NCBI RefSeq assembly: GCF_014648355.1
Contig: NZ_BMQY01000001.1
Location: 1,108,757 to 1,172,756, forward strand
Source of the DNA: Couchioplanes azureus
GTDB taxonomy: Bacteria; Actinomycetota; Actinomycetes; Mycobacteriales; Micromonosporaceae
DNA: 64,000 nucleotides
Direction of reading: 5' to 3'
Each line of letters opens with the position of its first letter. Positions within the stretch are counted from its first letter, which is position 1. A program made the position numbers and the translations under genes. Below the pieces are notes generated by a model. It was not told where the DNA came from. It saw only the letters and a program-made list of their open reading frames with translations, and did not search any database. Shown piece by piece: positions 8,520-47,395 of this stretch.

Positions 8520-8534
8520 AAAGGGCGGCCCCCG

Positions 8535-32439: not shown

Positions 32440-32529
32440 GGTGGTGTGTCCGAGCGGCCTAAGGAGCACGCCTCGAAAGCGTGTGAGGGTGCAAGCCCTC
32501 CAAGGGTTCAAATCCCTTCACCACCGCCA
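32440..32529 (+). tRNA. tRNA-Ser(CGA), integration target of the element
   Basis: Acceptor GGTGGTG/CACCACC, anticodon stem CACGC/GCGTG with loop CTCGAAA (anticodon CGA), long variable arm, T-loop TTCAAAT, discriminator G and encoded CCA. The 3' half is repeated at 47511-47570 as attR. The tRNA stays intact because the element restores its 3' end. Confidence 0.97.
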
Positions 32530-32530
32530 C
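32471..32530 (+). other. attL of the integrated element
   Basis: Matches attR (47511-47570) over 60 bases: cctcgaaagcgtgtgagggt identical, then four differing bases, then 36 identical bases (32495-32530 with 47535-47570) covering the T-arm and acceptor end. Crossover in the 36-bp core is most likely. Confidence 0.93.
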
Positions 32531-32542
32531 TAGCAGGGCAGA

Positions 32543-32573
32543 CGCCCGGCGACTCTCAGTGAGCCGCCGGGCG
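32543..32573 (+). terminator. hairpin just inside attL
   Basis: cgcccggcg (32543-32551) pairs with cgccgggcg (32565-32573), then tttct. It ends the tRNA-Ser transcript in the integrated state; a similar hairpin beyond attR would do so after excision. Confidence 0.75.
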
Positions 32574-32583
32574 TTTCTGTGTG

Positions 32584-32606
32584 TGGTCTCAGTTTTGGTC
32601 TCAGTT
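32584..32606 (+). promoter_or_regulatory. putative integrase arm-type sites, attL side
   Basis: tggtctcagtt occurs twice, 12 bases apart. The same pair and spacing appear at 47396-47417 inside attR. Confidence 0.65.
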
Positions 32607-32643
32607 GGCAGAAACGAGCAGCCCCGCCGTCCCGCCGTCGGGC

Positions 32644-33870
32644 TCATCGTGGTTCTTCCGGGGCCGGGTGCCACAGCAATCCACCGACGCGCTTCGCCAC
32701 GTCGTGGCGTACCTGATCGGTGAGGTGCTGGTAACGCTTCGCCATCGCGGAGTTGGACCAGCCCATGATGCCCATCACGGCACGTTCCGCGACCTCCAGC
32801 ACCAAGAGAACCGTCGCGGCGGTGTGCCGGGCATCATGCAGGCGCCCGTCCCGCAGCTTGGCTGCCTTCAGCAGCCGCTTCCACTCGGTGTAGTCCGTGC
32901 GCGGATTCAGCGGTCCTCCCGTCGGCGTGGCGAATACCCATCCGCCATCGGTCCACAACTGCGCGGCTTTGACGCGGTCCGCATCCTGCGCGTGCTTGTG
33001 CTGGCGCAGAAGGGACACCAACTGATCGGGAAGGCCAACCCGACGACGACCGGCGCGTGACTTGGTCTCGGCGCACTCCTCTCGAAGCGGCTCACGATCG
33101 GGGCAGTGTCCGCCCATCTTCCGGCCGCACGGCGCCTTGCAACCATGTCGCCACCTCGGCCGCAATCGTGACCGGCGCACAATCAACGCACCGGCGTCCA
33201 GATCCACGTCGGCCCACTTCAAGCCAAGCGCCTCACCCTGCCGCAAGCCGAGTGCGAGCGCGATAGCCCACCGGGCGCCATTTCGGGGCGTTTCAGCCGC
33301 AGCGACGAGAAGGCGCTGAACCTCCTCGACGGAGTACGGTTCCACCTCCTCTTCATCGAGTCGCGGCGGCTTGGCGAGGCTCGCAACGTTCTTGGCGAGA
33401 TGCCCGCGCCGCATCGCTTCGTTCAGGGCGGTGCGCAAGGTACGGAGCGCCTGGTGTGCGGTAGCGGCTTTGCTGCCACTCTGCTGCATCCGGCGGGTTA
33501 GTTTCTCGACATGCTCGGGCGTCAACTTTTCCAGCCGGTGAGCACCGATACCCGGGATAAGATGCACATTCACCGCCACGCGATAGCCAGACGCCGTGTT
33601 CTCACGGACGTTCGGCGTTGCGATGTTCTCTAGCCAGTGCGTGAGCCACTTAGCCACGGTCCAACTCTCACCCGCCTTGCGCAGGGTGCCGCTGTCCCGT
33701 TCGCGTTCGATCGCACGGACCTTGGACTTGACGGTCTTCTCGTCTTTACCCGTCACGTGGCGACGGTCCGGCTTGCCATCATCTCGGGTGCCGACGGTCA
33801 CGCGACCGTGCCAACGACCGTCGGCACCCTCGTAGATGGACGATTCGCCGTTCGCTCGGCGCTTCGCCAT
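32644..33870 (-). CDS. int: tyrosine site-specific integrase
   Basis: It catalyses integration into and excision from tRNA-Ser. 408 residues: an AP2-like arm-binding N-terminus (SIYEGADGRWHGRVTVG), a core-binding SAM-like domain (about 70-170) and the catalytic domain with R210 (LGLRQGE), H345-x-x-R348 (HDARH) and nucleophile Y380 (RYQHLT). A Cys/His cluster (C244, C248, H255, C256, C266) forms an insertion that could bind zinc; this is seen in some actinobacterial integrases. It lies next to attL, as expected, and 15 bases after xis. Confidence 0.95.
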   Translation of the reverse strand: MAKRRANGESSIYEGADGRWHGRVTVGTRDDGKPDRRHVTGKDEKTVKSKVRAIERERDSGTLRKAGESWTVAKWLTHWLENIATPNVRENTASGYRVAVNVHLIPGIGAHRLEKLTPEHVEKLTRRMQQSGSKAATAHQALRTLRTALNEAMRRGHLAKNVASLAKPPRLDEEEVEPYSVEEVQRLLVAAAETPRNGARWAIALALGLRQGEALGLKWADVDLDAGALIVRRSRLRPRWRHGCKAPCGRKMGGHCPDREPLREECAETKSRAGRRRVGLPDQLVSLLRQHKHAQDADRVKAAQLWTDGGWVFATPTGGPLNPRTDYTEWKRLLKAAKLRDGRLHDARHTAATVLLVLEVAERAVMGIMGWSNSAMAKRYQHLTDQVRHDVAKRVGGLLWHPAPEEPR

Positions 33871-33885
33871 TGTCGATTCTCCTTT

Positions 33886-34095
33886 TTAGGCTGCGGCCGG
33901 TAGTTGGGTATTCTGTTGGCGCAAACGGTTGACGTACTCGATGAGGCATTGATCGGGAATGCGGCGGAGTCGGCCGATGGTGACGGACTCGATTTCGCCG
34001 CTGGCGACGAGCGCGCACATGAGGGTTCGGCCGATGCCGAGCCTCTGCGCGGCTTGTTCGACGGTGAGGACGAGTGGTGTGGCGTCGGCGGCCAT
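33886..34095 (-). CDS. xis: excisionase / MerR-like HTH protein
   Basis: 69 residues with the excisionase-type winged helix: LTVEQAAQRLGIGRTLMCAL and SGEIESVTIGRLRRIP. It should bind near the att sites and turn Int towards excision. It precedes int in the same operon. Confidence 0.88.
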   Translation of the reverse strand: MAADATPLVLTVEQAAQRLGIGRTLMCALVASGEIESVTIGRLRRIPDQCLIEYVNRLRQQNTQLPAAA

Positions 34096-34355
34096 GGCGG
34101 TTCTCCCATGCTTCGACGTGGCGGGCCTTGTAGAGGGCGCCCACGTCGCCGCCGAGGCCCCGTCACGTGTCCAGGGCCTCGGGACGTGGGTGCGAAGGGG
34201 CGGTGCGCAGAGGGCGGCAGAGCGGCCCGTTGAGAGCGCCGTAGAGGCAAGATCGAGGGCGGGTGCGGGTAAGGCGATGCGCCGATCTGTCTACGTGGCT
34301 CTCAGCGGGCCGTTCTGAACGGTGCCTCGGGGCCGGCTGGATGTGGGCGGGGTTG

Positions 34356-34558
34356 CCGTCCCATCCGTCCCAGCCGTCGCAGTGCAGGTCAGCGCGGGAC
34401 GGCAAAATCTGCTGGGACGGCTTATGCCGTCCCACGTCCCGCGTCGGCCGGAGGCGAGGGCATCTCGTCAAGGGTGGGCTGGGACGGATGGATCCGTACC
34501 ACGTCGGGTATCCGTCCCGGGCTGACCTGCGGCGGGACGCTTGGGACGGCAGGGACGG
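34356..34558. repeat. GGGACGG repeat cluster (candidate origin)
   Basis: GGGACGG or its complement CCGTCCC occurs nine times in about 200 bases (34356, 34365, 34396, 34414, 34427, 34481, 34512, 34543, 34552), with near copies at 34434 and 34534. The cluster spans the 3' end of the DUF3631 gene and the following gap. It resembles iterons near the replication genes. The rest of the gap 34096-34421 holds nothing supported. Confidence 0.6.
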
Positions 34559-35642
34559 CAACCCCCTCCGAGTCGGGGCAGTAGCGCTGCCACGCGTCGG
34601 CGAAGTCGGCGCGGCGGTAGCCCTTGGCCTGTCCGGTGCTGAAGCGCAGGTTGACCGAGGTGATGTCGTACTCGCGCAGCAGCGCGCCGAGGATGCGGGC
34701 GGTCAGCCCGGTTCCGCCGTACTCGGCCCATGGTGCTTCGGGGTCGGCTTTGAGCCGGTCGATGAGCACGGAGGTGGGGATGGCGTCGTGCGGGCCGAAC
34801 GCGGTCCGGCAGTCGGTGAGTAGCCGGATCCGGTCGGAGGTGACGGTGTTCCCGTCACGTTCGGCGGTGAGCGCTTCGGCGGCGCGGCGGCCCCGGTCGG
34901 GCCAGTCGCCTCCGGCGAGGTCAGCGACGGCGATCAGCGGTTCCCAGGTGTCGGCGGCCCGGTCCTCCAGCGGCATATCAGGCTCAGCGCGTTCCAGGAT
35001 GGCGAGGTGGGCGCGTAGCCAGGTGCTGAGGTCGTTGCCGACCTGGCGCAGTTCCGGGCCGTCGCGGCGGTGCCGGTACGGGGCCACGGTTTCGCCGGGT
35101 GCGCGGCGGCGCATCCGCACGACCACGGCCCGGTCCTCGATGGTGTCGGGCATCTGCCCGATCCCGGCGAGCGCGGCCATCGCGAACGTGGCGATCTTCT
35201 CCACCCTTTTGGTGTTGCTGTCGTAGCGGATGGTGGGCCGGTTGCGTTGGTGTCCGGCGTTGAGCAGCCCGCGCAGCTCCTCGTTCGATTCGGCCTGTTT
35301 GCCGCCGAAGATGGTGTCCGCCTCGTCGACCAGCAGGGTGGGTGGTTCGTCGCTGCCGATTGAGCGGTACACGGCGGCGGTGGACGCGTTGACGGTGATC
35401 AGCGGGTTGCAGCAGGTGCCCTCGACGATGTCGAGAAGCCGCGACTTGCCGCACCGCTTCTCCGGTGCCCGGATCACGAGGCGGGGTGCGTGCGCCCACG
35501 CGGTGACGGCGTGGGTGGCGGCGACCCACAAGGCCACGGCGTCGATGGCCTCCGCCGATGGCAGCACCACGTACTTGGTCAGGGTGGCGTGGAGCCGGTC
35601 GAGGATGGCGGTTCCCTCGATGATCCGGTGTGGTTGTGTCAT
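34422..35642 (-). CDS. DUF3631-domain replication ATPase
   Basis: 406 residues. A P-loop-type start RAPEKRCGKSRLLD (Walker A about 60-68) and Walker B LLVDEADTIFG (about 103-113) are followed by MRRRAPGE and the DUF3631 core (WEPLIAVADLAGGDWPDRGR). Such proteins accompany Prim-Pol in actinomycete elements and phages and probably open or unwind the origin; this is inference. The C-terminus is Pro-rich and covers part of the GGGACGG repeat cluster. Its ATG overlaps the Prim-Pol stop (ATGA), so the two are coupled. Confidence 0.85.
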   Translation of the reverse strand: MTQPHRIIEGTAILDRLHATLTKYVVLPSAEAIDAVALWVAATHAVTAWAHAPRLVIRAPEKRCGKSRLLDIVEGTCCNPLITVNASTAAVYRSIGSDEPPTLLVDEADTIFGGKQAESNEELRGLLNAGHQRNRPTIRYDSNTKRVEKIATFAMAALAGIGQMPDTIEDRAVVVRMRRRAPGETVAPYRHRRDGPELRQVGNDLSTWLRAHLAILERAEPDMPLEDRAADTWEPLIAVADLAGGDWPDRGRRAAEALTAERDGNTVTSDRIRLLTDCRTAFGPHDAIPTSVLIDRLKADPEAPWAEYGGTGLTARILGALLREYDITSVNLRFSTGQAKGYRRADFADAWQRYCPDSEGVAVPAVPSVPPQVSPGRIPDVVRIHPSQPTLDEMPSPPADAGRGTA

Positions 35643-36694
35643 GCGGCGATCCCTTCTATGGCAACGGATTCCGCGCGGAACCCGCCGACGATGGCGGCAT
35701 GGATGTCGCGGTGGGTCTGCTGCGCGCGCACACCCGCGTCGTAGAGCGCTTGGTAGGCGTCAGCCGGGGTGAGGGCTCCGGCGGCGACCATCCGCGCCAC
35801 GCCCCGCGCCGCGCCGTACAGGGTGTTGCGGCGGGTGCCTTCGGCAGCGCGGGCTACCGCGTCCAGGTGCGCGGCGAGTAGGGCGGCCGGGGATGAGATG
35901 CCCTTCCCCCGGCCGATGGGGGTGACGGTGGCGGCCGGGGCAGCGGGCGGCTCGGGTGGCCGGCAGAGCGCGAGCAGCGGCGCGGGCATCTCAGCCATGG
36001 GCCGGTCCGCCACCCGCCGGTACGGCTGCCCGGTGCGCGGGTGCGCCGAGGGCGGGACGACCACGTACCCGCCGTCGGCCTTGATGTCGATGCCGTCATG
36101 CCCGCGCAGCTTCGCGGCCAGGGGAACACCGGGATGGCGGTAGTAGAGGTGCCAGCCGCCGGAGCCGGTGCGCACACACCGCGTCGGCGGCATCAGCTCG
36201 GGCAGCACGGCTCCGCCGTTACGCGGGTCGATGTCGAGCACGCACAGGTCGCAGAGGCGGCCGGTGCGAATCGCCAGCATCCCGCCGGGGACAGCGGTCA
36301 CGAGGGCGGCGATCCGGTCGGGGTCGCGAGTCGCGGCGTAGAAGGCGTGACAGGTCAGGCACGCGCAAGCCTCCGGGTCGTGGCTGGGATCCTCGGCGGC
36401 TTTCGGGCAGGCGGGGCAGTTGGCGACGGGCCGCTTGCCGCCGGCCAGCAGGAACACGGGGAAGCCCTCGGCGGCCAGCGCGAGCGCGGCGGTCAGCGTC
36501 GGGCCAGACTTCGGCATGGTCGGCTCCCTGGTGGTGACGGGGACAGAGGGTGGTTCAGGTCGCCCCGCCAGCGCGGCCGGGGTGTGCGCGGGACAGCGCG
36601 GCCCGATCAGGTAGCGGCGCACCCGGTCGGCGGCGAGGCAGAGGCGGGCCTCGGCGCCGATCCAGTGCCCGCACGCGGCGGCGGGGCGGGTCAT
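35639..36694 (-). CDS. bifunctional DNA primase/polymerase (Prim-Pol)
   Basis: The replication initiator class called Prim-Pol in AICEs. The catalytic acidic pair is VLDIDPRNGG (about residue 150), followed by RTGSGGWHLYYRHPG and GIDIKADGGYVVVPPS. A Cys-rich insert (CPACPKAAED...CACLTCHAFY) may bind zinc. Two starts are possible: ATG 36694, which adds a 59-residue Cys/His segment (CGHWIGAEARLCLAADRVRR), or ATG 36517 (MPKSGPTL), which has GGGAG ideally spaced. The N-terminal segment is found as a separate short gene in related elements, so both products may be made. Confidence 0.85.
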   Translation of the reverse strand: MTRPAAACGHWIGAEARLCLAADRVRRYLIGPRCPAHTPAALAGRPEPPSVPVTTREPTMPKSGPTLTAALALAAEGFPVFLLAGGKRPVANCPACPKAAEDPSHDPEACACLTCHAFYAATRDPDRIAALVTAVPGGMLAIRTGRLCDLCVLDIDPRNGGAVLPELMPPTRCVRTGSGGWHLYYRHPGVPLAAKLRGHDGIDIKADGGYVVVPPSAHPRTGQPYRRVADRPMAEMPAPLLALCRPPEPPAAPAATVTPIGRGKGISSPAALLAAHLDAVARAAEGTRRNTLYGAARGVARMVAAGALTPADAYQALYDAGVRAQQTHRDIHAAIVGGFRAESVAIEGIAA

Positions 36695-37032
36695 CGGGGT
36701 TTGCGGCTCGTGAGGGTGGCCCGGTCCGGACGGCCGTCTCGCAGGCCGGGTCGGATCGCAATGGCCGCGAGGACCTCGCGTAGTAGGCGCAGTGTGGTGG
36801 CGAGCTGCCAGCGGGCGCCGGTTTCGGTGTGGTGCAACGGGATCCGGGCGCGGATCTCGGCGTACTCGACGTCTCCGGCGCGGACGCGGGTGAGGATGGC
36901 GCGGCCGCCGATGCCGTCGGCGATGAGGTCGGCGGAGCGGTGTTCGTTGATCCCGCAGCGGTGGTCGCGGGTGCACCAGTCGGTGTGCGGAGTCGGGGCG
37001 CGCCGATGGCGCGCCATCATGCGGGGGCTCAT
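36691..37032 (-). CDS. AICE-associated small hypothetical protein
   Basis: 113 residues from ATG 37032: CTRDHRCGINEHRSADLIAD, then strands with YAEIRARIPLHHTETGARWQ and a helix LATTLRLLREVLAAIAI. The pattern is common in AICEs beside Prim-Pol but has no known role. It overlaps both neighbours by four bases (ATGA), in one coupled operon with the Prim-Pol and the next gene. Confidence 0.75.
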   Translation of the reverse strand: MSPRMMARHRRAPTPHTDWCTRDHRCGINEHRSADLIADGIGGRAILTRVRAGDVEYAEIRARIPLHHTETGARWQLATTLRLLREVLAAIAIRPGLRDGRPDRATLTSRKPR

Positions 37033-37280
37033 CGGTTGCCCTCGCGGCGCCGTCGTGCAAGGTGGTTGTAGATCCAGCGCCCGGCGCGTAGGCGGCGGCC
37101 GGTGCCGTCGCAGCGGCGGCAGAGCCGGAACGCGCGCCCGGACGGGGAGCGCTTCTTGCCGAGCCCGTGGCATTTGCGGCAGGCCTTGAACGGCCAGATC
37201 CAGCACCCTAGCGCGTAACAGACGGTGACGGTCAGGGCGGCGATGGTGAGGGTGATAGCGGGGGTGAGGTGGGGGTCCAT
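37029..37280 (-). CDS. small zinc-ribbon membrane protein
   Basis: 83 residues. One membrane helix (ITLTIAALTVTVCYALGCWIW) is followed by a four-Cys ribbon, CRKCHGLGKKR...CRRCDGTGRR, like the DnaJ CxxCxGxG motif, and a very basic tail. It may bind DNA or protein at the membrane during transfer. It is the first gene of the replication operon, downstream of the hairpin at 37367-37416. Confidence 0.75.
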   Translation of the reverse strand: MDPHLTPAITLTIAALTVTVCYALGCWIWPFKACRKCHGLGKKRSPSGRAFRLCRRCDGTGRRLRAGRWIYNHLARRRREGNR

Positions 37281-37331
37281 GTCAGCCTCCGGAGCCGGAT
37301 TTTGGGTGTGCGGGGCTGTGAGCTGCTATCC

Positions 37332-37416
37332 GCTAGCGGCCAGCTCAGGATCTTGATCGGGTGCTAGCAGGGCTGCTAGCGCTAGCAGGTGGAGCCGCTA
37401 GCGCTAGCAGCCCTGC
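37332..37416. repeat. GCTAGC cluster with 20-bp perfect inverted repeat
   Basis: GCTAGC occurs six times (37332, 37363, 37375, 37381, 37397, 37403). Bases 37367-37386 pair perfectly with 37397-37416 around a 10-base loop. It lies just after the stop of the FtsK-type gene, the place where Tra proteins of other elements bind clt repeats. It may also act as terminator. Confidence 0.7.
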
Positions 37417-37422
37417 GACGGC

Positions 37423-39624
37423 TCAGCCGTCGCCGCGTTTGCGGTCACGCTCCGCGATCGCGGTGAGGAGGTCGGCGTGGCGGATGCCGCGCCGGGTGAC
37501 CGGCTTGCCGTCGACGCGGCGGCCGACGTCGGCCACCTTGACCGCGGGGTGCGACTTGAGGGCGGCGGTGAGCTGGGAGGCTTCCCAGCCGTCGTAGACG
37601 TCGGGCCGCAGTTCAGCGAGCAGACCGCACAGGGTCTCGTTCCACGCCGACTTCTCGTCGCCGGGCCACACCCGGGCCAGGTCGTCCAGCACGTGATGCT
37701 GCGGGGCGACGTCACGCTCGGCCGGGAAGGTGGGGATGTTCCCGGCCGCGGTGCGCAGCGCGACCGCACGGGCCACGATCGGCCGAGCGGCGTTGGTATC
37801 GACCTCGAACGATCGCACCGACTGCACCGGGCCGCAGCCGCGCAGGACGCCCCAGCCCGCGTCGTCCTTCGGCTGGAAGACGGTGGCGCGGTAGCCCTGC
37901 TTATAGGCAGAAGTTCCGAGGATCATGTCGTTCGCCGTTTGGTCGGCCACGGACAGGCAGAACCGGGTGTTGACGTTGCGGGTGATTCCGGGCGGCAGGC
38001 TCTTCGCATCGGGGATCTGCGTGCCGAGCAGGATGATGATCCCGAGCGCCCGGCCGAGCTTGATGACCTTCTCTAGGATCTCGCCGGCTTCCTTGCCGTA
38101 CTTGCTCTGCATCAGCTCTTGCAGCTCGTCGAACCAGGCGACGAGCGGGTGCAGGCCGGAGCCCTTCAGCGACGCCAACTCGGGGGTGACCTTGTTTTCC
38201 GGGGCCTTGCCGAGCCGGGCGTAGTGCTCGATGCGCTTGGAACGCCGGCGGGCTTCCTCGTAGAGCCACTCGATGAACGCGAAGCATTGGGCGAGGGTTT
38301 CGTCGTCGAAGCCGTTGCCGTACTCGGCCATCACCGGCTCCAGCACGGCGAAGTCCCCGACGCCCTTGAGTTCGTAGCCACGGATCTCCGTGCGGGGGTC
38401 CAGCGCGGCGGCCAGGACCAGGTCGCGCAGGGCGAAGGTCTTGCCCGAGCCGGGCTGGCCTCCGAACAGGAAGTTGCGGAACATCATGTCCAGGCTGACC
38501 GTGTCGAGCTTCGGCGTGGTGGCGAACGGGAAGGCCTTGAACAGGTCTACCTTCGCCGACCCTGACAGCAACGGCCAGGGCGGCTGCTTCATCTGCGAGG
38601 CCGGTTCGTAGCCGACCCACAGGGCGAGCCGGCCGGTGTGCCCGGGCGCCGGTTCGGGCCACACCTGATCGAGCGGCAGCCGCATCGCGCTAGCGAGCTT
38701 GCCTCTGCGGGCGACCACCTCGGCGGCTTCCACGCCGTAGGGCAGGTCGACGATGGCGATGTGTCCGGGGCCGTCGCGGTGGATGTCGACCGGGAAGCTG
38801 ATGGCCTTCGGGTCCTTGGCGACCGCGCTGTTGATGGCGGCCATCTGCAACGAGGTCAGCGCCCGGCGCACGAGTTCGGCGGTGAGCTTGCGGTAGCGGG
38901 TGCCTTCGCTGACCCGGTCGGTGAGCGGCTTGTCCGCCGGGCGTCCCCGGGTGGCCAGGAACGGCACCACGACGGCGAGGGCGATCCACCGCCACCAGGT
39001 GGGGCCGTAGGCGAGCACGACCCCACCGACGATCAGGGCGAGCAGGGCGGCGCCGAGGACCCACCAGCGCCACACGCTCTGCCGCTGGCGGCGCGCGTCG
39101 AGCTTGAGCCAGGTGTCGGCCTCGCCCCTAGCGGCGGCGGCCTGCCGCAAGTGCCAGTTGCCCTCCTCGGCGGTGGCCCAGTGCACGGCCTGCCCGAGGC
39201 CCCGGAAGAGCCCGACCGGCGCCCACACGGCCGTCTTCGCCGCGTACTTCGGCGAGCGCACCGCGTGATACGCCAGCACGTAGCCGGCGTCTTTGGTCTG
39301 GTGCTTCACGGCTGCCTTGAAGCCGCGCCAGGACCGGGCCCAGTCCGCCAGGATCGGGCGCCGCGCCTGCTGCCGGGCCTGGATCTCGGCCGGGATGTCA
39401 TCGGCGGCATCCACCGGGCCACCCTCGGCCGGTGGGCTGTCATCGACCGACTCGGCATCGGTGTCATCGTCGATCTCGGGATCCGGGTCGGCCGGGGTCG
39501 GCGCGGCCCGGTCACGCCGGGCTGCGGCCAGGTCGACGACCTCGGCGCCAGCGACGTCGTTCTCGGCGGCGGTCCAGTCGAAGTCGTCCGGGTTCGGATT
39601 CGGGTTCGGGTGGGGGTTGGTCAT
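37423..39624 (-). CDS. FtsK/SpoIIIE-type DNA translocase for conjugation (Tra)
   Basis: 733 residues from ATG 39624. An acidic Pro/Asp-rich N-terminus, two membrane helices (WWVLGAALLALIVGGVVLAY and WWRWIALAVVVPFLA, about 185-225) and a motor domain with Walker A FGGQPGSGKTFAL (about 385-397) and HPLVAWFDELQELM (Walker B). The C-terminal winged helix (about 640-720) would read a DNA sequence. In AICEs such a protein alone pumps double-stranded DNA to the recipient through hyphal tips. Its likely target, the GCTAGC cluster, lies right behind the gene. The start overlaps the stop of the next upstream gene. Confidence 0.93.
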   Translation of the reverse strand: MTNPHPNPNPNPDDFDWTAAENDVAGAEVVDLAAARRDRAAPTPADPDPEIDDDTDAESVDDSPPAEGGPVDAADDIPAEIQARQQARRPILADWARSWRGFKAAVKHQTKDAGYVLAYHAVRSPKYAAKTAVWAPVGLFRGLGQAVHWATAEEGNWHLRQAAAARGEADTWLKLDARRQRQSVWRWWVLGAALLALIVGGVVLAYGPTWWRWIALAVVVPFLATRGRPADKPLTDRVSEGTRYRKLTAELVRRALTSLQMAAINSAVAKDPKAISFPVDIHRDGPGHIAIVDLPYGVEAAEVVARRGKLASAMRLPLDQVWPEPAPGHTGRLALWVGYEPASQMKQPPWPLLSGSAKVDLFKAFPFATTPKLDTVSLDMMFRNFLFGGQPGSGKTFALRDLVLAAALDPRTEIRGYELKGVGDFAVLEPVMAEYGNGFDDETLAQCFAFIEWLYEEARRRSKRIEHYARLGKAPENKVTPELASLKGSGLHPLVAWFDELQELMQSKYGKEAGEILEKVIKLGRALGIIILLGTQIPDAKSLPPGITRNVNTRFCLSVADQTANDMILGTSAYKQGYRATVFQPKDDAGWGVLRGCGPVQSVRSFEVDTNAARPIVARAVALRTAAGNIPTFPAERDVAPQHHVLDDLARVWPGDEKSAWNETLCGLLAELRPDVYDGWEASQLTAALKSHPAVKVADVGRRVDGKPVTRRGIRHADLLTAIAERDRKRGDG

Positions 39625-39992
39625 TGTCCGTTCTCCTTCCGGACGAGTGAGGTGACTTCGGCGGTGAGGTTGCCCTCGGTGTCCAGGCCCCACGGCAGGA
39701 CCCAGGCGAGTCCGCGCTCGGCCAGGGCTTCGGCAGCAGCGTGGAATTGGTGCTCCTCGGGGCGCTCGTAGACCCGGTCCCGGCGGGGCAGAGCAATCCA
39801 CTCCACGCCCTGGCTGCGGTGCACCTGCAGGACGTAGCCGCCCCATCCGGCAGGCGCGATCGTGACCCGGGATGCAGGCCCGAGCCACCAGCCGGTCCAG
39901 GGACAAACGCGGATGGCGAATCGGTTGAGCAGCCGACGGAGGCGGGTCAGCAGGGGCGTCAGATCAGTGGTGGTGTGGGGGTGCGAGAGCAT
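39621..39992 (-). CDS. hypothetical AICE protein
   Basis: 123 residues, no known motif. A basic N-terminus (LTRLRRLLNRFAIRV) is followed by a Trp-rich beta segment (WTGWWLGPASRVTIAPAGWG) and a helix (FHAAAEALAERGLAWVLPW). Its end overlaps the tra start by four bases, so the two are co-translated. Confidence 0.7.
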   Translation of the reverse strand: MLSHPHTTTDLTPLLTRLRRLLNRFAIRVCPWTGWWLGPASRVTIAPAGWGGYVLQVHRSQGVEWIALPRRDRVYERPEEHQFHAAAEALAERGLAWVLPWGLDTEGNLTAEVTSLVRKENGQ

Positions 39993-40099
39993 GAGGGTTC
40001 TCCCCTGAAATCGAACGTGGGTGTTGGGGTGAGGCCCGGGACGCGGGCCGGAGGTTGTCGAGGCCGTGTCGGCCCGCGTCCCGAGGTAGTCGGGAAGGC

Positions 40100-40552
40100 T
40101 CAGAAGCGGATGGCGCCGTAGCTGGTGCCGCCCTGGCGGCCGACCCGGGCGTTGCCGGTGGCGATGTTGACGACCGACGGCGCTTCGGCGGGGACCTCGG
40201 ATTCGGCGGTGTCGCCGTGCTGCTGGCCGACCCAGGCGTTACCGAGGCGGAGATTCACCTCACGGACCGGGTGGTCCCCGGCTGCGGGCTCACTGCCCTG
40301 CACACCGACGCGGGCGTTGCCTGCGGCGATGTTCACGGTGCGCGGCGGGTAGGTGTCGGGGGTGTCCCCGGGCGGCGGGGTTGCCGGGGGTCGAGGCCGG
40401 TCGGTGCTGCGGCCGAGGACGCGGCCTTGTACGTCCACCACGTCGTTGCCGGAGGCGATGTTCACGATGGTGGTCCGTCCTGATGCGGTCGAGGTGGAGG
40501 TGGTGGAGTTGCCGGTGCAACGGCGTCCGCCGTGGGCTTTGCTGCGACACAT
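40100..40552 (-). CDS. GNARVG-repeat protein, unknown function
   Basis: 150 residues from ATG 40552, preceded by GGAAGGGA. It opens MCRSKAHGGRRC, a start seen in many short actinobacterial element proteins, and then carries four repeats of VNIAxGNARVGxQG form: VNIASGNDVVDVQG, VNIAAGNARVGVQG, VNLRLGNAWVGQQH and VNIATGNARVGRQG. Spacers of 20-40 residues are Pro/Thr-rich. Spaced short strands of this type suggest a beta-roll or a ligand-binding array. No function is known; it lies between the transfer and Nudix genes. Confidence 0.75.
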   Translation of the reverse strand: MCRSKAHGGRRCTGNSTTSTSTASGRTTIVNIASGNDVVDVQGRVLGRSTDRPRPPATPPPGDTPDTYPPRTVNIAAGNARVGVQGSEPAAGDHPVREVNLRLGNAWVGQQHGDTAESEVPAEAPSVVNIATGNARVGRQGGTSYGAIRF

Positions 40553-40724
40553 GACGGGGTGTCCCTTCCGAAGATTCAGGCGGCGATCACGAGGGCGGCG
40601 AGGTGGGCGGTGTCTGGCAACATCTGGGGTCTCTCCCGTGGGTCTCACCCGGATTGGGCTTGCGGGTTGGAGACCGGCGGCACGGCGCTTGACTTGGCGG
40701 TTGGGGCCGTGCCGCCGGGCGGCG

Positions 40725-41384
40725 CTACCGGCCGAGCGCGGCGGCGAGCATCTCGCGGTGCGCGGGGAACACCTCGGCGCCGAAGCTGGTCAGGCAGTGC
40801 ACGAGAGTGCGGTAGTCATGCGCAGGCAGCCACGCGGCGCAGGCCGCGTCGTCGGCGCCGCGCACGTGCGGGAAGTCGATCGGTTCCGGGTAGGTACCGA
40901 GGTCGGTGCGGGATAGGACGGTGACCATCCACGCCTCGTCGCTGGCGCGCGGGTCCGGCACGTAACGCGGCGCTGAGGTACGCCAGCGCTCGGCCGGCAC
41001 CTCCAAGCCGGTTTCCTCGGCCAGCTCACGGACAGCGGCGTCAACGGGGGTCTCGCCGGGCTCGACGAACCCGCCGGGCAGCGCCCAGCCGTGACCGTCG
41101 ACGCGTTCCACCATGAGCAGCCACCGGCCACCCGCGCTGTCGGTGGCGGTCACCATGGCGTCGGCGGCCAGGGCCTCGCCCCAATGGCCGAGTTCGTTAC
41201 GGCCGTGCCGGATGCCGGTGTTCTCGCACGGGTTGACCGGCCGCCCGTCGACCACCTCGAACGCGATCGCGGCGGCGGCTTGCCGAGTAGTCCAGTCGAG
41301 GCGGGTCGGGTCGGTTTCCGGGTCGGCCCAGCCATCGCGCACTCCGACGGTGAGGACGTCGGGATGGGTGTAGGTGCGGCTCAT
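40725..41384 (-). CDS. Nudix hydrolase-domain protein (compare Pif of pSAM2)
   Basis: 219 residues from ATG 41384. The full Nudix box spans residues 104-127: GGFVEPGE then a loop and REL-AEE-TGL, with all metal-binding Glu present. The N-terminal 80 residues ([32 protein letters not shown]) are specific to AICE proteins. In pSAM2 a Nudix-motif protein, Pif, blocks redundant transfer between carriers, so an immunity role is plausible; a house-cleaning role on nucleotides is the other option. It overlaps the next gene by four bases. Confidence 0.88.
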
Positions 41385-42229
41385 CGACTGGTCTCCGTCC
41401 GGGTCGAGGGGCGGTGCATGAGGTGAGCGAGGGCGGCGCCCATGCCGAGCACGGCAACCGGGATGCACGACACAGCGGCAGTGATCGGCCACGGCGCCGA
41501 GCTCCATCCGGCGGCGGCCATCAGGTGGTAGGCGATCTGACCGAGCGCGCCCAGAGCGAGGGAGCCGAGGGCGGACCACTTGGCGAACTCGCGGGCGTCA
41601 CCTCGGGCGCGGCCGGACAGCCACACGAATAGCGCGAACGCGGCGTAGGTCTCTACACCGATCGGCAACGTGATCGCCGTGTCCAGTTGGAAGGTGGAGA
41701 TGCCGGGCAGCAGCGTGACCTTGCCGAAGCCGGTGAGGCGGCCCATCTCGACCCAGCCACCCCAGATCGCAACGAACGCGGGCAGGCACAGGATCAGCAC
41801 CGGCCAGGTGACCGGCCGACCCGCCGGCCGTTCGTCGGACGGCGACTGAGGCGACGTCAACGGTTTCGAGGTGGCCTCCGGCTTGGCATCCTCGCTTGCG
41901 GGCGGCAGGACCGGAGCCGTGTCGTCCGGGACCTCGCCGTCGTCGGGGTCGGCGGGTGGGGTGGGCGCTAGGTGCAGGGGCGGGGCTTCGGCGAGGCTGC
42001 CCCGGCTCACCAGGTGCAGGTGCATGTCGCTGCGGAACTTGTCCTGCTCGGCAAGCCGGTCCAGGGCCTCGCGCAACGCCTTAGCCTTGTCCGCGCCGAC
42101 GCGGAAGGTCTTCATCAGCTTGTTGCGCGAGGGCACCTCGCCGAGCTGTCGCGTCAACTCGACCGCGCGCGGCAGTAGGTCATCGACGTTCGGCGGGTAG
42201 GCGCTGCGCGCCGTCGTCGTGGCCTTCAT
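41381..42229 (-). CDS. SpdB-like/DUF2637 membrane protein with HTH N-terminus
   Basis: 282 residues from ATG 42229. Residues 10-65 form a helical DNA-binding-like region ([36 protein letters not shown]); residues 80-140 are a Pro/Asp linker; the C-terminal half has four hydrophobic helices ([65 protein letters not shown]). Membrane spread proteins of this layout help plasmid movement along hyphae. It is part of a chain of overlapping genes from 43078 down to 40725. Confidence 0.8.
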
Positions 42230-42459
42230 CGTCCGGCCCCGGCATCGATGGCAGTGTCGAAGCGCTGGAAGGTCAGCAGCGTGACCTTGGTCAGGTCGCT
42301 GGTCTCGATCAGGTAGTCCTGGACCTTGCGGATGACGGCGCCGGAGGTGATCGGCTCGGGCAGGTTCAGGTCCTGCCATCCGAAGACCTGACCGGCGTGG
42401 TTCATGCCGGTGAAGCTGACGAAGTAGCGGTACGGGCGCGGGCTGGTCGCGGTGTTCAT
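42226..42459 (-). CDS. small hypothetical AICE protein
   Basis: 77 residues from ATG 42459: YRYFVSFTGMNHAGQVFGWQ and a C-terminal LIETSDLTKVTLLTFQRFD. A single alpha/beta unit with no motif. Coupled by four-base overlaps to both neighbours. Confidence 0.7.
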   Translation of the reverse strand: MNTATSPRPYRYFVSFTGMNHAGQVFGWQDLNLPEPITSGAVIRKVQDYLIETSDLTKVTLLTFQRFDTAIDAGAGR

Positions 42460-42824
42460 GCGGTGGGTTCTCCTTGGCAGATAAGGCATTCGCCGGTCGA
42501 GCGGGGGATGTAGTAGGGCCGCAGGCGGCGGCAGGTCGGGCAGGTGCGCCGGGCTCGCAGGGCCTTGTCCAGGGCGGCGAGCACGGCCGGGGACGCGGTG
42601 CGCTTCGGTCGCGCCCGGTCGAGGCGGTACAGGTAGGCGGCGCGGATGCCACCGACGCCGCGCCACAGGATCTGCGCGGCGATCGGTTGACGCCCGGGGC
42701 ACAAGCCCCGTGCGCGAAGCTGTCGGCGGGTGGCGTAGCCGGCCGGGGCGCCCTGCCACCAGAAGGTGGGCAGGCCGTACCGGGCGCCGTCCGGATCGAA
42801 GAACGCGGCCCGGACCCGGCCCAT
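42456..42824 (-). CDS. RRQRL-motif zinc-binding protein
   Basis: 122 residues. It has FFDPDGARYGLPTFWWQGAP, the RRQLRARGLCPGRQPI motif and a C-terminal zinc ribbon CPTCRRLRPYYIPRSTGECLIC. This is the known AICE/plasmid family named for its RRQRL motif; it is probably nucleic-acid binding, with role unproven. The ATG overlaps the previous stop by one base. Confidence 0.85.
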   Translation of the reverse strand: MGRVRAAFFDPDGARYGLPTFWWQGAPAGYATRRQLRARGLCPGRQPIAAQILWRGVGGIRAAYLYRLDRARPKRTASPAVLAALDKALRARRTCPTCRRLRPYYIPRSTGECLICQGEPTA

Positions 42825-43078
42825 CAGGCCACCAGGGCCGGGAGCGGGCGCCGCGTGCGGCCGGCGACGTAGGCGAACGTTTCGCGGATCACGCGAGCCT
42901 CAGCGCGGCGCAGCCGCCGCCAGTCCAGGCCGGTGGGGACACCGCGGTCGTCGGCGACGAACATGGCGATCTCCGCAGCCAGCCACTCCAGCTCGGCAGC
43001 GATCAGCGACTCCTCGGCCTCGATCGCGGCCAGCTCAGCGGCGGCCGGTTCGTCGGTGTGGGGCGATTCGGTCCTCAC
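42824..43078 (-). CDS. DUF6284-like small protein
   Basis: 84 residues from GTG 43078, chosen because GGAGG sits six bases upstream. An acidic helix (PAAAELAAIEAEESLIAAEL) and LDWRRLRRAEARVIRETFAY define the family as found in AICEs. It is the first gene of the leftward accessory operon; its promoter should lie in the gap 43079-43464, shared with the divergent GntR gene. Confidence 0.8.
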   Translation of the reverse strand: MRTESPHTDEPAAAELAAIEAEESLIAAELEWLAAEIAMFVADDRGVPTGLDWRRLRRAEARVIRETFAYVAGRTRRPLPALVA

Positions 43079-43311
43079 GAATTTCCTCCGGGTGACGGGT
43101 CGGCGCGGCAACCAACGACGCGGCCACAGCCACGCCGACCAGCGGATTCAAGGGAAGAGATGCACGGACCTGAGCCGTGCGCGGCGACCTTTTCAGTGGG
43201 AGGTGCGGCCCGATCCAGTTGTCAGAGGACAAGCGCACGGCGGGACGGTCACGAACGGCGTAGCCGAAGCCACCTCCGTCGTGCTGGAGCCCGACCGGCT
43301 GTGATGCGAGC

Positions 43312-43331
43312 AACCTAACAACTGATAGGTT
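43312..43331. promoter_or_regulatory. inverted repeat, candidate GntR operator
   Basis: aaccta (43312-43317) pairs with taggtt (43326-43331). A related half-site, aactgttagg, is at 43398-43407, and tgatagcct at about 43411 may be a -10 box for the GntR gene. The site lies between the two divergent operons. Confidence 0.5.
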
Positions 43332-43464
43332 AGCGAGTCAACTGGTATGGCACGTCCGGCTTGTGGCCTGGTGTTGGGCCGCTGAGGCGAGCCTCTCAAC
43401 TGTTAGGCCCTGATAGCCTGTGACGGTCAGGCTTCCCCGGAGCACGAGACAAGGACGCGCCGCG

Positions 43465-44322
43465 ATGACCTCAGCTGAGCCACGGCTCTCACGCGCTGAA
43501 GCGCTGCATATTCAGGTCGCTCGGCACATTCGCAACGACATCGAGGCAGGCATTCTCAGGGATGGCGAGACACTAAAGTCCACTCGGGAACTGGCCGCGC
43601 AGTGGGGCGTTAGCGTCTTTACGATTACCGAAGCAATGAAGATTCTCGCTGCCGAAGGACTAGTGGAGAACGTCTCCCGCTCCAAACGCGTGGTCCGCGC
43701 TCCGGAGCAACAGCGGCAACGCTTGGAGACGATTACTCGCAATCCGCACGTCATCCTTATCGGCGGGTATGCAGGAAGCGGAAAGACGGAGTTGGGCCGA
43801 ATCCTGGCGCGTCAGACTGGATGGCCGATGCTAGACAAGGACACGCTAACGAGGCCAGTCCTTGAGGCGGCGCTTGAGATGCTCGGGCTGTCTCCGCACG
43901 ATCGAGAATCCGAGACTTACTTGAACTTCATGCGGCCTCGTGAGTACGAAGCTCTTATGTCCGCCGCAAACGAAAACGTAGCTTGCGGAAACAGTGCCAT
44001 TGTGACAGCTCCGTTCCTCCGGGAGTTCAAAGATCGAGCGTGGCTCGATAGGACTGAGGCATCGTTTGCCGCTCTCACCGCTAAAGTTTCACTGGTCTGG
44101 GTCTATTGCGATGCAAAATCGATGCACGGGTATATCCGCCACCGGGGGGCAGCTCGAGACGGCCACAAGCTAGACGACTGGAAGGGATACCTAAGCAGCA
44201 TTGACCTTGATTTCCGTCCACCGCTCCCGCACCACGTAGTCAACAATTGCACCTCTAGCGCCCCGCTACAGAAACAGGCCAACGACCTGTTGGAGGCCAT
44301 TGCAGAGGCTGAGTCTGCGTGA
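43465..44322 (+). CDS. GntR-type regulator fused to a P-loop kinase-like domain
   Basis: 285 residues. Residues 1-80 form a GntR winged helix: RLSRAEALHIQVARHIRNDI, RELAAQWGVSVFTITEAMKI and LVENVSRSKRVVRAP. A second domain starts HVILIGGYAGSGKTELGRIL with a perfect P-loop (residues 100-108), then WPMLDKDTLTRPVLEAAL and WVYCDAKSMHGYIRHRGAARD, resembling small-molecule or zeta-like kinases. In other AICEs a KorSA-type GntR repressor sits here. Its stop overlaps the next gene (GTGA). Codon use is less GC-rich than its neighbours. Confidence 0.88.
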   Translation: MTSAEPRLSRAEALHIQVARHIRNDIEAGILRDGETLKSTRELAAQWGVSVFTITEAMKILAAEGLVENVSRSKRVVRAPEQQRQRLETITRNPHVILIGGYAGSGKTELGRILARQTGWPMLDKDTLTRPVLEAALEMLGLSPHDRESETYLNFMRPREYEALMSAANENVACGNSAIVTAPFLREFKDRAWLDRTEASFAALTAKVSLVWVYCDAKSMHGYIRHRGAARDGHKLDDWKGYLSSIDLDFRPPLPHHVVNNCTSSAPLQKQANDLLEAIAEAESA

Positions 44323-44858
44323 CCAGTGGCGTACTCCTGTACGGCCCTCCGGCCGCCGGCAAGGACACGGTTACGAGAGCCCTCGTGAGACTGGACGGAA
44401 GGTACCGGCAGTTCAGAAGGCTAAAACTAGGCGCCGGGCGCACAGATGGCTACCGGATGACTAACTCCCAGGAGATCGAGCGTCTTAGGCAGGCAGGCGA
44501 TCTTATTTGGGAGAACCGACGCTATAACTCCGCCTACTTTGTTGATCGCGACTTCTTGTTCCGAGAGCTAGCTCAGGGCTGGCCCGTCATTCACCTCGGG
44601 CAGCCCCTTGCCATATCCGCAATAAAACGATCGTTCTCGAAGAGTAATTGGCTTGTGGTGTACCTTTGGTGCCCACGAGACGTTGCGGAACGGCGCGCTA
44701 TCGAGCGCGGAACCGGCGATGTGGCAGAACGCATGGCAGCATGGGACGCAACAGAATCGCTCACCGAAGGCCTGAAAATCAATACATCGAGAAGCTCGCC
44801 GATCGAGGCTGCAGTACAAATAGATGCGGCTTTCCGCCGGATGTTGACACCGACCTGA
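44319..44858 (+). CDS. P-loop nucleotide kinase-like protein
   Basis: 179 residues from GTG 44319. P-loop GPPAAGKDT (9-17), then FRRLKLGAGRTDGYRMT, which recalls the GMP-binding region of guanylate kinase, and a lid-like CPRDVAERRAIERGTGD. The DGYRMT region and the later Arg-rich helix suggest a nucleotide monophosphate or related substrate. Co-translated with the GntR-kinase fusion, it probably works on the same ligand or signal. The actual substrate is unknown. Confidence 0.8.
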   Translation: MTSGVLLYGPPAAGKDTVTRALVRLDGRYRQFRRLKLGAGRTDGYRMTNSQEIERLRQAGDLIWENRRYNSAYFVDRDFLFRELAQGWPVIHLGQPLAISAIKRSFSKSNWLVVYLWCPRDVAERRAIERGTGDVAERMAAWDATESLTEGLKINTSRSSPIEAAVQIDAAFRRMLTPT

Positions 44859-45030
44859 GGGACTCACACGCCCAAGACGGGCCAAAGGATGCACCCTAAG
44901 GACAAGTGCGAAACTATTCTGTCCTACTGTGTGGTTGAGTCGCCGCCAATGGGGCGCACTCTTCTATCGAGGGGCGGGGAACCGACGCAGCAATTCGTAA
45001 GGCACCCGGGGTGCGCAACGCTGAGCAAGC

Positions 45031-46137
45031 CTACTCCACCAGGCGAGGTATTTCAGCGGCTTTACGGTCAGGATGCCTTGAGACGGCCAACAGCCTGCCG
45101 TACAGCATCTTTGATCTACCGGAATCGGTTCGCCTCAGCAATTCCATAGCGATAAGGTGACTGCTTGATTTTCGCCGAATCAAGTATGCCATCGCCCCGT
45201 ATACCGCGTCCTCGTCTTCAAGGGTGACAACTTCACGCGCCATTTCCTCGGCCGCTTCCATCTGGGCGAGCTGCTCCATAGACCACATGATCGCACCGAG
45301 CCACTCCGCGGTTCCTTGCGGCTGAGGATCTACGTTCTCAAGGAAGTCGGCAAGCGACTGCACCGCTGGTAATGGTATCTGGCTTAGGTAGGCCGCATTG
45401 GCTAGAATGTCATTTGCTGCTCGCTGTTGACCAATAGCTTGAGAAATCAACACGACGGAACCAACCGATACAGCTATAAAAATCCACCACTTGCTGTTGA
45501 TCGGCGCCACGGCCGCTAAAACCAGCAATGGGGGGACGATGGCAAGGCGTAATTCCGACTCTGCCTTCGCTCTATCGAAGTCTTGGTAAAGAGTTGGCGC
45601 CGTCACGGCCAACTGAGGACCGCTGTAGCGCGTTTGGCTTATCGCATGAGATAACGGGTACAACATCGCAGCTTCGCCGGGGACCTTAGCTTTTCCGAGC
45701 ACAGATGCCACCGTATCCGCGATTAAGCTTCGAGCTGTCGCGCTGAATGATTCGCATGATAGATACAACCTGCGAAGAGACCTATAGAAGCGTCGAAGGG
45801 ATGTCGGTCGACGCATGAGGCCATCAGGCCGAAATTCACCACCTATCGCGTTCAGACCTTTCATCAAACTTCTACCAGCTAGGCGCAGGACGGCGCCTGT
45901 CACAGTATTTGCGACGGCACCGACAAGGAATGCTCCTGCAACAAGGGCGGCAATGACAAGGTAGGCGGGAAGGGTCTTCAGGGTCTTCCCGAGGGCATCG
46001 GTATGCTCGTTCTTGACGATGAGGCTGCCCGGATTCTCGCCAAACTGAATGAATAGCACCCCTAGCCAGAGAAGGCCGGCCGCCATCGGGGCGCGCAGAT
46101 CACGTATGCCGGGCAACAGAGACGCTAAGAATCCCAC
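45031..46137 (-). CDS. orphan integral membrane protein, element cargo
   Basis: 368 residues. Hydrophobic segments lie at about 17-33 (PMAAGLLWLGVLFIQFG), 56-84 (LPAYLVIAALVAGAFLVGAV) and 197-236 (IVPPLLVLAAVAPI, WWIFIAVSVGSVVLI), with a soluble C-terminal third rich in Glu and Gln (WSMEQLAQMEAAEEMAREVV). I do not recognise a family. GC content is visibly lower than that of the backbone. Between a kinase pair and a restriction-like nuclease at the variable end of an AICE, it may be a defence effector; this rests on location only. Confidence 0.75.
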   Translation of the reverse strand: MGFLASLLPGIRDLRAPMAAGLLWLGVLFIQFGENPGSLIVKNEHTDALGKTLKTLPAYLVIAALVAGAFLVGAVANTVTGAVLRLAGRSLMKGLNAIGGEFRPDGLMRRPTSLRRFYRSLRRLYLSCESFSATARSLIADTVASVLGKAKVPGEAAMLYPLSHAISQTRYSGPQLAVTAPTLYQDFDRAKAESELRLAIVPPLLVLAAVAPINSKWWIFIAVSVGSVVLISQAIGQQRAANDILANAAYLSQIPLPAVQSLADFLENVDPQPQGTAEWLGAIMWSMEQLAQMEAAEEMAREVVTLEDEDAVYGAMAYLIRRKSSSHLIAMELLRRTDSGRSKMLYGRLLAVSRHPDRKAAEIPRLVE

Positions 46138-46375
46138 TCAGCCATCATATGGCGCAGGCGTCCAGCCGAACGTAGCCGCCACACCACTTAGGTGCCTCTA
46201 CGTCAGTCACTCGCGATCCCTTCCCTTTGCGGGTCTGCAACCGCCACGTGAGAGTCTTACTGTTGTAGGAAATTCCTTGGCCATCCGTAGGCCACCAGGT
46301 CGCCGTGACATCCACGATCACCTCAGCGTGGCCGTCCGCTACCGCACGGACGGCAAGAGATCTAAAGCCCAGTAG

Positions 46376-47359
46376 CTACCTCTGGCCCAGAACGATGGCT
46401 CGAAGCTCGTCGACGGTTAGCCACGACTTCGAGCGATGGATCATTCTGTGGCAGTTGGAGCACAGCAGAGCGAGGTCTTGCAGACTGGTCGTCGTTGGCC
46501 CTGTCACGTGCAGCGGTGTTCGGTGGTGGCACTCGATGTAGTCGGCACCGTGTGGCCCGTAGGTCTTGCCGAAGTCGAAGCCGCAGACCTCACATGCAAT
46601 GGCTAAGCCGGCCTTCTTCACCTGCGCAAGCTTGGCTCTCCGGATCTTGGGGTCGCGTTCCCGGCGAAGATGTTGACGCAGCAGGACGCCACCCTCATCA
46701 GCGGTGGCGTCTTCTACGTCGGCGTCTGGCAAGGCTTTCCCTGGTTCCTCGGCCCACAGTGCGGCCCGGATGGCCCTGGCGAGGGCATGCATGTCCGCCG
46801 GGCTGTCAAGGAAGTCGCGGAGGACTTCACCGTCGATGCGGTTGCCGTTGGTGGCGCGTCCCGCGTAGGCAGGGTGAGAGGTAGCGATGTCCGCCATCTT
46901 GCGATGAATGCTGGAGGGCGTCCGGAAGTCGGGGCCGCGCTGGTCCGGTGGATAGATGGAGTGGCTCTGGAGGAGCCTGGACAGCTCGATGACTTCCGGG
47001 TGGGTGCGATCGAGCGGACGCCACCCGTTGGGCTCGATGAGTGCAGAGGCGAGAATGATCTCGTCCCGGGTCCAGTCCTGCCTGGGTATGTAGCGGACTG
47101 TGAACCCGAGTGCTTCGAGCCGAGGGACCACGGTCTTCTCACCGCCGCTGAAGTCGGCCGGTGCAAGCGCCACCCCGGTGCTCAGCCGGTGTGCGCGGCC
47201 AACGATGGCCTTGGAGTCGTAGAGCTGGCCGGCGTGCTGGAGGTAGTAGAGGCGGGAGCGAGAGAAGCCGGTCGCGCGGAGGAACTCCTCGCGCCCGAGT
47301 CGATCGAACTCGGCGATGGCGGCCTGCACGGCGGGTGCGGTGATGTCGGCGAGCGTCAC
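46376..47359 (-). CDS. HNH endonuclease, ScoMcrA-like
   Basis: 327 residues. The N-terminal domain (AIAEFDRLGREEFLRATGFS, YDSKAIVGRAHRLSTG, DFSGGEKTVVPRLEALGF) resembles the head domain of ScoMcrA-like modification-dependent nucleases. The C-terminal HNH has zinc ligands C256, C259, C300, C303 and the catalytic HH (278-279) in ECHHRTPLH, then CSNCHRMIHRS. The middle holds IHRKMADIATSHPAYAG. It likely cuts foreign, perhaps methylated or phosphorothioated, DNA. It is the last gene before attR, a usual cargo position. Confidence 0.85.
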   Translation of the reverse strand: MTLADITAPAVQAAIAEFDRLGREEFLRATGFSRSRLYYLQHAGQLYDSKAIVGRAHRLSTGVALAPADFSGGEKTVVPRLEALGFTVRYIPRQDWTRDEIILASALIEPNGWRPLDRTHPEVIELSRLLQSHSIYPPDQRGPDFRTPSSIHRKMADIATSHPAYAGRATNGNRIDGEVLRDFLDSPADMHALARAIRAALWAEEPGKALPDADVEDATADEGGVLLRQHLRRERDPKIRRAKLAQVKKAGLAIACEVCGFDFGKTYGPHGADYIECHHRTPLHVTGPTTTSLQDLALLCSNCHRMIHRSKSWLTVDELRAIVLGQR

Positions 47360-47395
47360 GGGCTGACCCTAGGGCAGGGGTACGACATCGCGTGG

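Follow-up and report, generated by a model that had tools for sequence, protein, structure and literature searches.

TraB proteins were reported to bind the 8-bp TraB recognition sequence (TRS) repeats of the cis-acting locus of transfer (clt) (PMC4170104, PMC3583192), helix alpha-3 of the pSVH1 TraB was reported as the reader, and the clt of pWTY27 was footprinted by TraA (both PMC3583192). Actinomycete integrative and conjugative elements (AICEs) of the RepAM/Prim-Pol kind were described with an integrase, RepAM, Prim-Pol and an FtsK-like Tra between tRNA attachment (att) repeats (PMC3218068). PMC9513070 (2022) states that no clt had been described for the AICE pSAM2 and raises for AICEs the question of whether the TraB of one element can be hijacked by a different one. 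The sites have hitherto been known for a few Streptomyces plasmids. The window analysed here, a stretch of 64,000 nucleotides from Couchioplanes azureus (NZ_BMQY01000001.1, positions 1,108,757 to 1,172,756), was found to contain an AICE of about 15 kb with a cluster of GCTAGC repeats directly behind its tra gene (Table 1). With a probability of roughly 90%, this cluster is the clt of the element and the putative loading site of its own FtsK-like Tra. The observed basis is the position, conservation and layout of the cluster, its co-variation with Tra, and a wing residue of Tra that tracks the half-site, from which we infer that Tra binds the cluster.

The presumed TRS motif of pSVH1, GACCCGGA, was found in its sequence four times and once more inverted, all no further than about 115 nt from the traB stop, at spacings of 22, 32 and 21 bp. 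The present cluster resembles this arrangement in the position of the repeats directly behind a homologous traB, in the presence of direct plus inverted copies and in the partly 21-22 bp spacing. It differs in the repeat itself and in containing TGCTA-N4-TAGCA dyads together with a further inverted repeat and a next-gene site, and half-site switching across the family is a feature of the Tra family studied here. The clt of pWTY27 is likewise reported at or near the 3′ end of tra, and direct and inverted repeats are shared with pWTY27 and pIJ101, but the repeat sequences of these two are different, they are plasmids and not AICEs, and they form no family-wide series of specificities. Relative to the AICEs presented in PMC3218068, a clt candidate is here defined for many AICEs. 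No report of clt arrays was found in the open-licence literature, which is not proof of absence, and the accessible parts of PMC11389934 and PMC5704250 contain no mention of a clt-based mobilisable element.

Table 1. Coordinates of the element, its genes and the parts of the repeat cluster in the window
Feature	Position	Strand	Remark
AICE-type integrative element	32495..47570		36-bp att repeats at both ends
Tyrosine integrase	32644..33870	-	
RepAM-type gene	34422..35642	-	DUF3631, PF12307
Prim-Pol gene	35639..37060	-	PF09250
83-aa open reading frame	37029..37280	-	two CxxC pairs; next after the cluster in most Tra elements
tra, FtsK/SpoIIIE-like translocase	37423..39906	-	winged helix predicted for the last ~90 residues
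Entire module of the proposed clt, where the translocase would load	37254..37416	-	read in tra direction
Dyad 1, half-sites TGCTAGC / CGCTAGC	37396..37409	-	13 nt past the tra stop codon
Dyad 2, TGCTAGCGCTAGCA	37374..37387	-	centre 22 bp from dyad 1
Single site TGCTAGCA	37362..37369	-	
Perfect 20-bp inverted repeat	37367..37416		made of the two dyads plus flanks
Second inverted repeat TGAGCTG...CAGCTCA	37319..37347		arms 37319-37325 / 37341-37347
GCTATC site in the start of the next gene	37254..37259	-	class-matched in most relatives

The cluster was located behind the tra stop (37423) and ahead of the 83-aa open reading frame (ORF; 37280) and was found to contain six GCTAGC copies within 77 bp (37332, 37363, 37375, 37381, 37397 and 37403). 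The arms of the perfect inverted repeat (37367-37386 and 37397-37416) were 100% complementary over 20 bp with a gap of 10 nt. A sequence-only reading of this DNA had reported both features, and coordinates and shuffles bear it out; the span given there, 37332-37416, does hold the cluster but was too narrow, with further conserved sites at 37325-37330, in the second inverted repeat (37319-37347) and probably at 37254-37259. Among 300 dinucleotide shuffles, the maximum per 85 bp was one copy (261 shuffles) or two (39). The window as a whole contained 12 GCTAGC against 10.4 expected, which is no overall enrichment, and nine 6-mers, mostly G+C-rich, were found to attain at least six copies per 85 bp somewhere in it, so that the repeat count is a weak argument for the cluster and conservation is the strong one.

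In the tra direction, dyad 1 was followed by dyad 2, the single site, the second inverted repeat and the next-gene site. The second inverted repeat contained GCTATC (37325-37330) and GCTAGC (37332-37337), and the GCTATC of the next gene probably belongs to the conserved site set. The palindrome GCTAGC was rejected as the unit, since relatives retain TGCTA-N4-TAGCA-like dyads with different centres (TGCTAGG-centred in the loci L016 and L022, TGCAATC/TGCTATC in L013; labels L for loci and G for genomes are ours), and the true unit is therefore the half-site TGCTAGC. Among the 53 Tra loci with two readable dyads, both dyads were palindromic in 30; in the remaining 23, the second dyad was the reverse complement of the first (15), the two were identical and asymmetric (3) or neither was the case (5). 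The large perfect hairpin stressed by the sequence-only reading is thus common but not required. An RNA or hairpin structure as the main function was also set aside, as the identical asymmetric dyads of L104, L108 and L164 break the hairpin.

Absence of the cluster beside a near-identical translocase, which the sequence-only reading had named as the outcome that would speak against a clt, did not occur. An array of this order was found directly after the stop in 22/22 named Tra relatives fetched (73-84% identity), the form in L013 being diverged. The genera of these 22 we take to be Micromonosporaceae. Family-wide counts were made on 75 Tra (ORFs that score above 450 bits and are followed by at least 140 nt, from loci longer than 3.5 kb), among which no exact duplicates occurred and close relatives remained, so that counts are not independent events. 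Left out of the counts were L019 and L024, where Tra appears to be broken up, L068 and L089, which lie at contig ends, the 3-kb loci, most of which duplicate longer ones, and all lower-scoring Tra; the split Tra of L151 was represented by its C-terminal ORF alone. The distance from the tra stop to the first site was 2-48 nt with a median of 13; the window, with 13 nt, contains a non-coding repeat array in cis and close to tra, as expected of a clt.

The strict double-dyad pattern (TGCTA-N4-TAGC-spacer-TGCTA-N4-TAGCA, with the backward pattern as control) was found in 38/300 genomes of the family, some of the genomes searched being fragmentary, with no control match and with nearly always identical dyad spacing, and in 12/394 genomes of the class with one control match. 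The cluster was present in records of Micromonosporaceae, Streptomyces and Nonomuraea. The initial 66 nt of the following gene contained GCTA[G/T] in 46/48 loci of that class, with sites of the other classes in 0/48, and GCTACC in 9/10 loci of the GCTACC class; seven loci had no start under the rule of the script.

The type of site was then compared with the neighbouring genes. RepAM was found in 66 of the 300 family genomes at 80 places, and comparison of coordinates placed the strict pattern within about 3 kb at 10 of them. Sixty of the 80 places, nearly all selected for lacking the strict pattern, were fetched; 27 were found to contain a Tra of the family with a comparable array behind it, and in the other 33 Tra was more distant, fragmentary or undetected. 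The arrays of the 27 consisted mostly of other half-sites (GCTACC, GCGACC, GTTACC, CTCTAG), with some GCTAG types that had escaped the strict pattern, and complete dyads were fewer in the GCTACC, GCGACC and GTTACC arrays. For the 37 loci in which Tra, RepAM and the small ORF occur together, with GCTAGC and GCTAG[G/A] pooled as one type, the area under the curve (AUC) for a shared site type was 0.889 for the Tra C-terminus, 0.785 for the Tra motor, 0.666 for RepAM and 0.495 for the small ORF, and the observed values were reached by 0, 0, 4 and 542 of 1000 permutations, respectively. The RepAM of L066 and L126 were 96% identical and their Tra motors 27%, and the sites were of the GCTAGC/GCTATC type in one and GCGACC in the other. 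Judged from these comparisons, site type follows Tra, RepAM weakly and the neighbouring ORF not at all. Repeats specific to the cognate Tra are what a clt would show, and the clt reading proposed from the sequence gained support from this co-variation, from the winged helix predicted at the Tra C-terminus and from the pSVH1 TRS in the same place.

The last 150 residues of Tra were modelled with AlphaFold2 (mean pLDDT 77.5, with blocks of 90-95 over residues 61-140) as helices plus a beta-hairpin wing, which gives modest support to a winged-helix domain. The best Z in the VIA comparison was 6.1, and most of the named VIA rows belong to what we take to be winged-helix families. Foldseek gave weak matches and nothing at E ≤0.001 against the PDB, and an FtsK gamma domain was absent from the Foldseek and VIA rows shown. 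In the first predicted wing strand, the residue after V/I was G in 31/31 Tra with GCTA[G/T]C sites, aromatic (W/Y/F) in 26/26 Tra with GCTAG[G/A] sites and K in 18/18 Tra with G[C/T][T/G]ACC sites, as typed both by alignment column and by the residue next to V/I. The wing residue agreed with the half-site class in 75/75 Tra, two of which (L145 and L169) were set by eye to GCTAG[G/A], the automatic count having given a tie for L145 and class C for L169. On the motor-domain tree, wing residue and half-site class were found to change eight times each, with agreement in 4/4 and 3/3 independent pairs, and switches occurred within the Tra clade of the window itself (L016, L022, L074). The wing would be an addition to helix alpha-3 as reader and not its replacement.

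The element's Tra would assemble, through its C-terminal winged helix, on the half-site array of two dyads 22 bp apart, single site, second inverted repeat and next-gene site. It would presumably load there as a hexamer and pump the excised double-stranded circle into the recipient, and the cluster would be needed in cis for this transfer.

Clt-like modules were also found in elements without Tra. Ten Tra-less elements were found to contain direct repeats of 27-102 bp overlapping tRNA genes, 8.1-9.6 kb apart, and no Tra by profile hidden Markov model (HMM; best E 0.0065, the RepAM of L062); with att-like repeats, no Tra by HMM and clt-like modules, they are candidate integrative mobilisable elements. 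A module detector, the classes and thresholds of which were set after these satellites had been seen, found two site classes in L184, L187, L189, L064 and L065, three in L057 and L062, four in L055 and L056 and five in L188. Six, five and five classes were found in L059, L060 and L061, which come from a single genome and lie at contig ends with no att seen; L186 contained three, and L105 and L107 contained two each. The 75 Tra elements contained one class in 68 cases, two in one (L141) and none in six, and 500 satellites shuffled in blocks of 2 bases gave none. The GCAAGG class of the detector is noisy and also fires in L141, in L203 and once in the window outside the element. The detector also misses modules, since L064 and L065 each hold a further one visible by eye.

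By eye, modules were read in L058, L059, L062, L188, L184, L189, L187, L055-L057, L064, L065, L186, L105 and L107. They were found to contain a recurring half-site or dyad array, then a single site and, beyond a spacer, two sites close together, some modules being shortened (GCTAGC of L189) or degenerate (GCTACC-like in L057, uncounted). When satellite modules were compared with AICE clts, 14/15 aligned and 11 aligned best with their own class, the best alignments having 73-84% identity over 63-118 bp; part of such similarity is due to the repeats as such. For the CTCTAG module of L059, the closest match was L177, an AICE from the same genome (G118). The picture is not wholly clean: module L188e matched no AICE clt, L188a aligned best with the GCTAGG type, and L188b and L059d had their best match outside their own classes, which were unseen in the AICE set. 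The detector also found no cluster in the Tra loci L013, L016, L106, L145, L151 and L169, in which variant sites are still readable. Module-like repeats with no Tra partner were seen in L058 (GCGATGCATCGC), L188 (GCAAGGCCTTGC) and L065 (CCTAGGTCTAGG), and Tra classes not yet seen are therefore predicted.

Annotated satellites contained an integrase, a helix-turn-helix protein, a TPR-type protein and a replication helicase; L107 contained a serine recombinase, a homologue of which was found in L105. The fetched stretches of L105, L107, L186, L102 and L114 contained neither a tRNA nor a repeat linked to one. Of 25 further Tra-less loci run through the detector, 15 had no cluster, namely 13 AAA_25-homologue loci (L185, L190-L196, L198-L202) together with L063 and L109, both of which hold the strict pattern. 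Modules were found in only five of the 20 AAA_25-homologue loci fetched (L184, L186-L189); L203 gave the GCAAGG match only, and L197 was excluded from the detector run, as it holds a Tra fragment with a GCTACC cluster at its contig end. Many AAA_25 loci contained separate repeat arrays of unrelated sequence near or within the 3′ part of AAA_25. These arrays were mostly element-specific (L185, L186, L192, L193, L195, L196, L198, L199, L200, L202) and are candidates for replication origins that lie in part within the helicase gene.

These observations suggest that satellites use the Tra of other elements, each module serving one Tra class, and we infer that Tra-less elements may be mobilised by helpers with a matching Tra. 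It is likely, at distinctly less certainty than the clt assignment itself, that small Tra-less satellites assembled 2-6 clt specificities for many TraB-type pumps and that the wing position (G, aromatic or K) largely sets the specificity. Mobilisable plasmids of Staphylococcus aureus were reported to contain two to three oriT variants, each matched to a conjugative family (PMC4652767); like the satellites they have no transfer protein of their own and carry sites of different specificity, but theirs is a single-strand relaxase system, whereas the satellites are integrative and hold clt-like modules of 2-6 site classes for double-strand pumps. If this holds, hitchhikers exist for double-strand conjugation too, as the counterpart of the multi-oriT plasmids of single-strand conjugation, and the sequence of each satellite would reveal its range of helpers. 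The present analysis provides a definition, by sequence, of clt candidates in a broad AICE family, a rule pairing protein with DNA that can be tested, and candidate hijackers, each of which carries several clt classes.

A replication origin of the RepAM/Prim-Pol replicon, with iterons or a primase start hairpin bound by Rep, would fit a cluster upstream of the Prim-Pol and RepAM genes, and the RepA of pWTY27 was reported to bind a long inverted repeat adjoining primase genes (PMC3583192). Many Tra-less elements carrying the cluster also contain integrase and primase/helicase genes, and clusters without an adjoining Tra had at first favoured this origin. It was overturned by the RepAM test and the multi-class satellites and is now considered very improbable: repeat specificity does not follow the rep gene, as nearly identical RepAM have different sites (L066/L126) and the RepAM AUC is below that of the Tra C-terminus, the strict pattern lies near few RepAM places, the same module stands beside RepAM with Prim-Pol, Prim-Pol with DUF3987, DnaB_N with DUF3987 and AAA_25, many AAA_25 elements have their separate unrelated repeats, and up to six site types occur in one element. 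A transcriptional role between tra and the following gene, as a terminator, an attenuator or an operator, is held to be just as improbable. The cluster is intercistronic and palindromic, and its orientation relative to the flanking genes does not vary among the loci read, but a simple consensus scan of 36900-37700 gave no terminator-like or sigma-70 promoter-like match, no hairpin followed by a T run was found, the sequence of the cluster changes when the Tra class does but does not follow the ORF downstream, the asymmetric dyads of L104, L108 and L164 break the hairpin, and modules recur away from tra in satellites. The presence of the cluster in elements with and without Tra, in all three groups of records named above, would suit a host factor or another element-encoded factor (partition, copy control, silencing) acting on many integrative elements; this is the least probable of the three, as it leaves unexplained both the half-site switching in step with the Tra wing within one bacterial family and the presence of several adjoining classes within a single satellite.

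Several results weigh against the cluster being a Tra-specific clt. Loci in which no Tra was found can show the complete layout as well; they are read here as satellites but are formally compatible with a ligand other than Tra. RepAM similarity is linked to site type as well (4/1000 permutations), an association expected of linked genes. In eight pairs, Tra C-termini that are at least 60% alike go with different site types (among GCTACC, GCGACC and GTTACC); all eight pairs are in the K group, where other residues therefore matter. The wing pairing is a post hoc finding with two classes set by eye, and neither sign test on the independent pairs can alone attain 0.05. Next-gene sites match less outside the two classes given above, with 2/4 for GCGACC and 3/3 for GTTACC, yet the same GTTACC loci also hold GCTA[G/T] (3/3). 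Behind the 39% identical Tra of the plasmid pPaSha2 the next gene begins 24 bp past the stop and the cluster is absent. Distant Tra (HMM below 300 bits) were followed by other repeats (L133, L137, L147, L135, L142, L154) or, for example in L143, L149, L150, L153 and L160, by no obvious repeats within 187 bp past the stop; distant Tra families obey other rules.

The att repeats of the element were found at 32495-32530, at the 3′ end of a tRNA-Ser (anticodon cga), and at 47535-47570. They enclose integrase, Rep and Tra, as in other AICEs, with the integrase, RepAM-type, Prim-Pol, 83-aa and tra ORFs all on the minus strand. The start of tra probably lies downstream of the listed TTG. The match of Tra to PF01580 (E 1.5e-4, 21.8 bits) was under the family cut-off of 24; a profile built from the Tra family found the pSVH1 TraB (203-204 bits over the whole protein, 1.6e-64), which places Tra among the FtsK/SpoIIIE motors homologous to a proven TraB. 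The 83-aa ORF was found to contain a hydrophobic N-terminus and had no Pfam match at E 0.001; it stays beside the clt across very different Tra and Rep types.

The repeats behind the distant Tra of RepAM elements (L133, L137, L147, L135, L142, L154) were dyadic (GTCCGGAC, GTGAA...TTCAC and GTGGAATCCAC) and are probably further clt classes. No match to the 141-bp stretch was found in phage records. Viral contigs contained 11 matches to the pattern, of which L089, L093 and L098 adjoin a Tra; L090-L092, L094-L097 and L099 were judged by eye to be without the actinobacterial layout and were rejected as chance or unrelated repeats. Outside the element, the window contained four more GCTAGC at 8330-8539, three of them in 60 bp, in repeats of the CTAGCAGAGCC kind behind the ORF 7805-8272; this group could be a chromosomal clt-like site or chance. 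On contig 1 of Dactylosporangium roseum (G064; L019, L024, L044) the cluster was present three times, at 7370970, 7379097 and 7387227, about 8.13 kb apart, with Tra matches in pieces in L044, apparently a tandem array of a decayed element.
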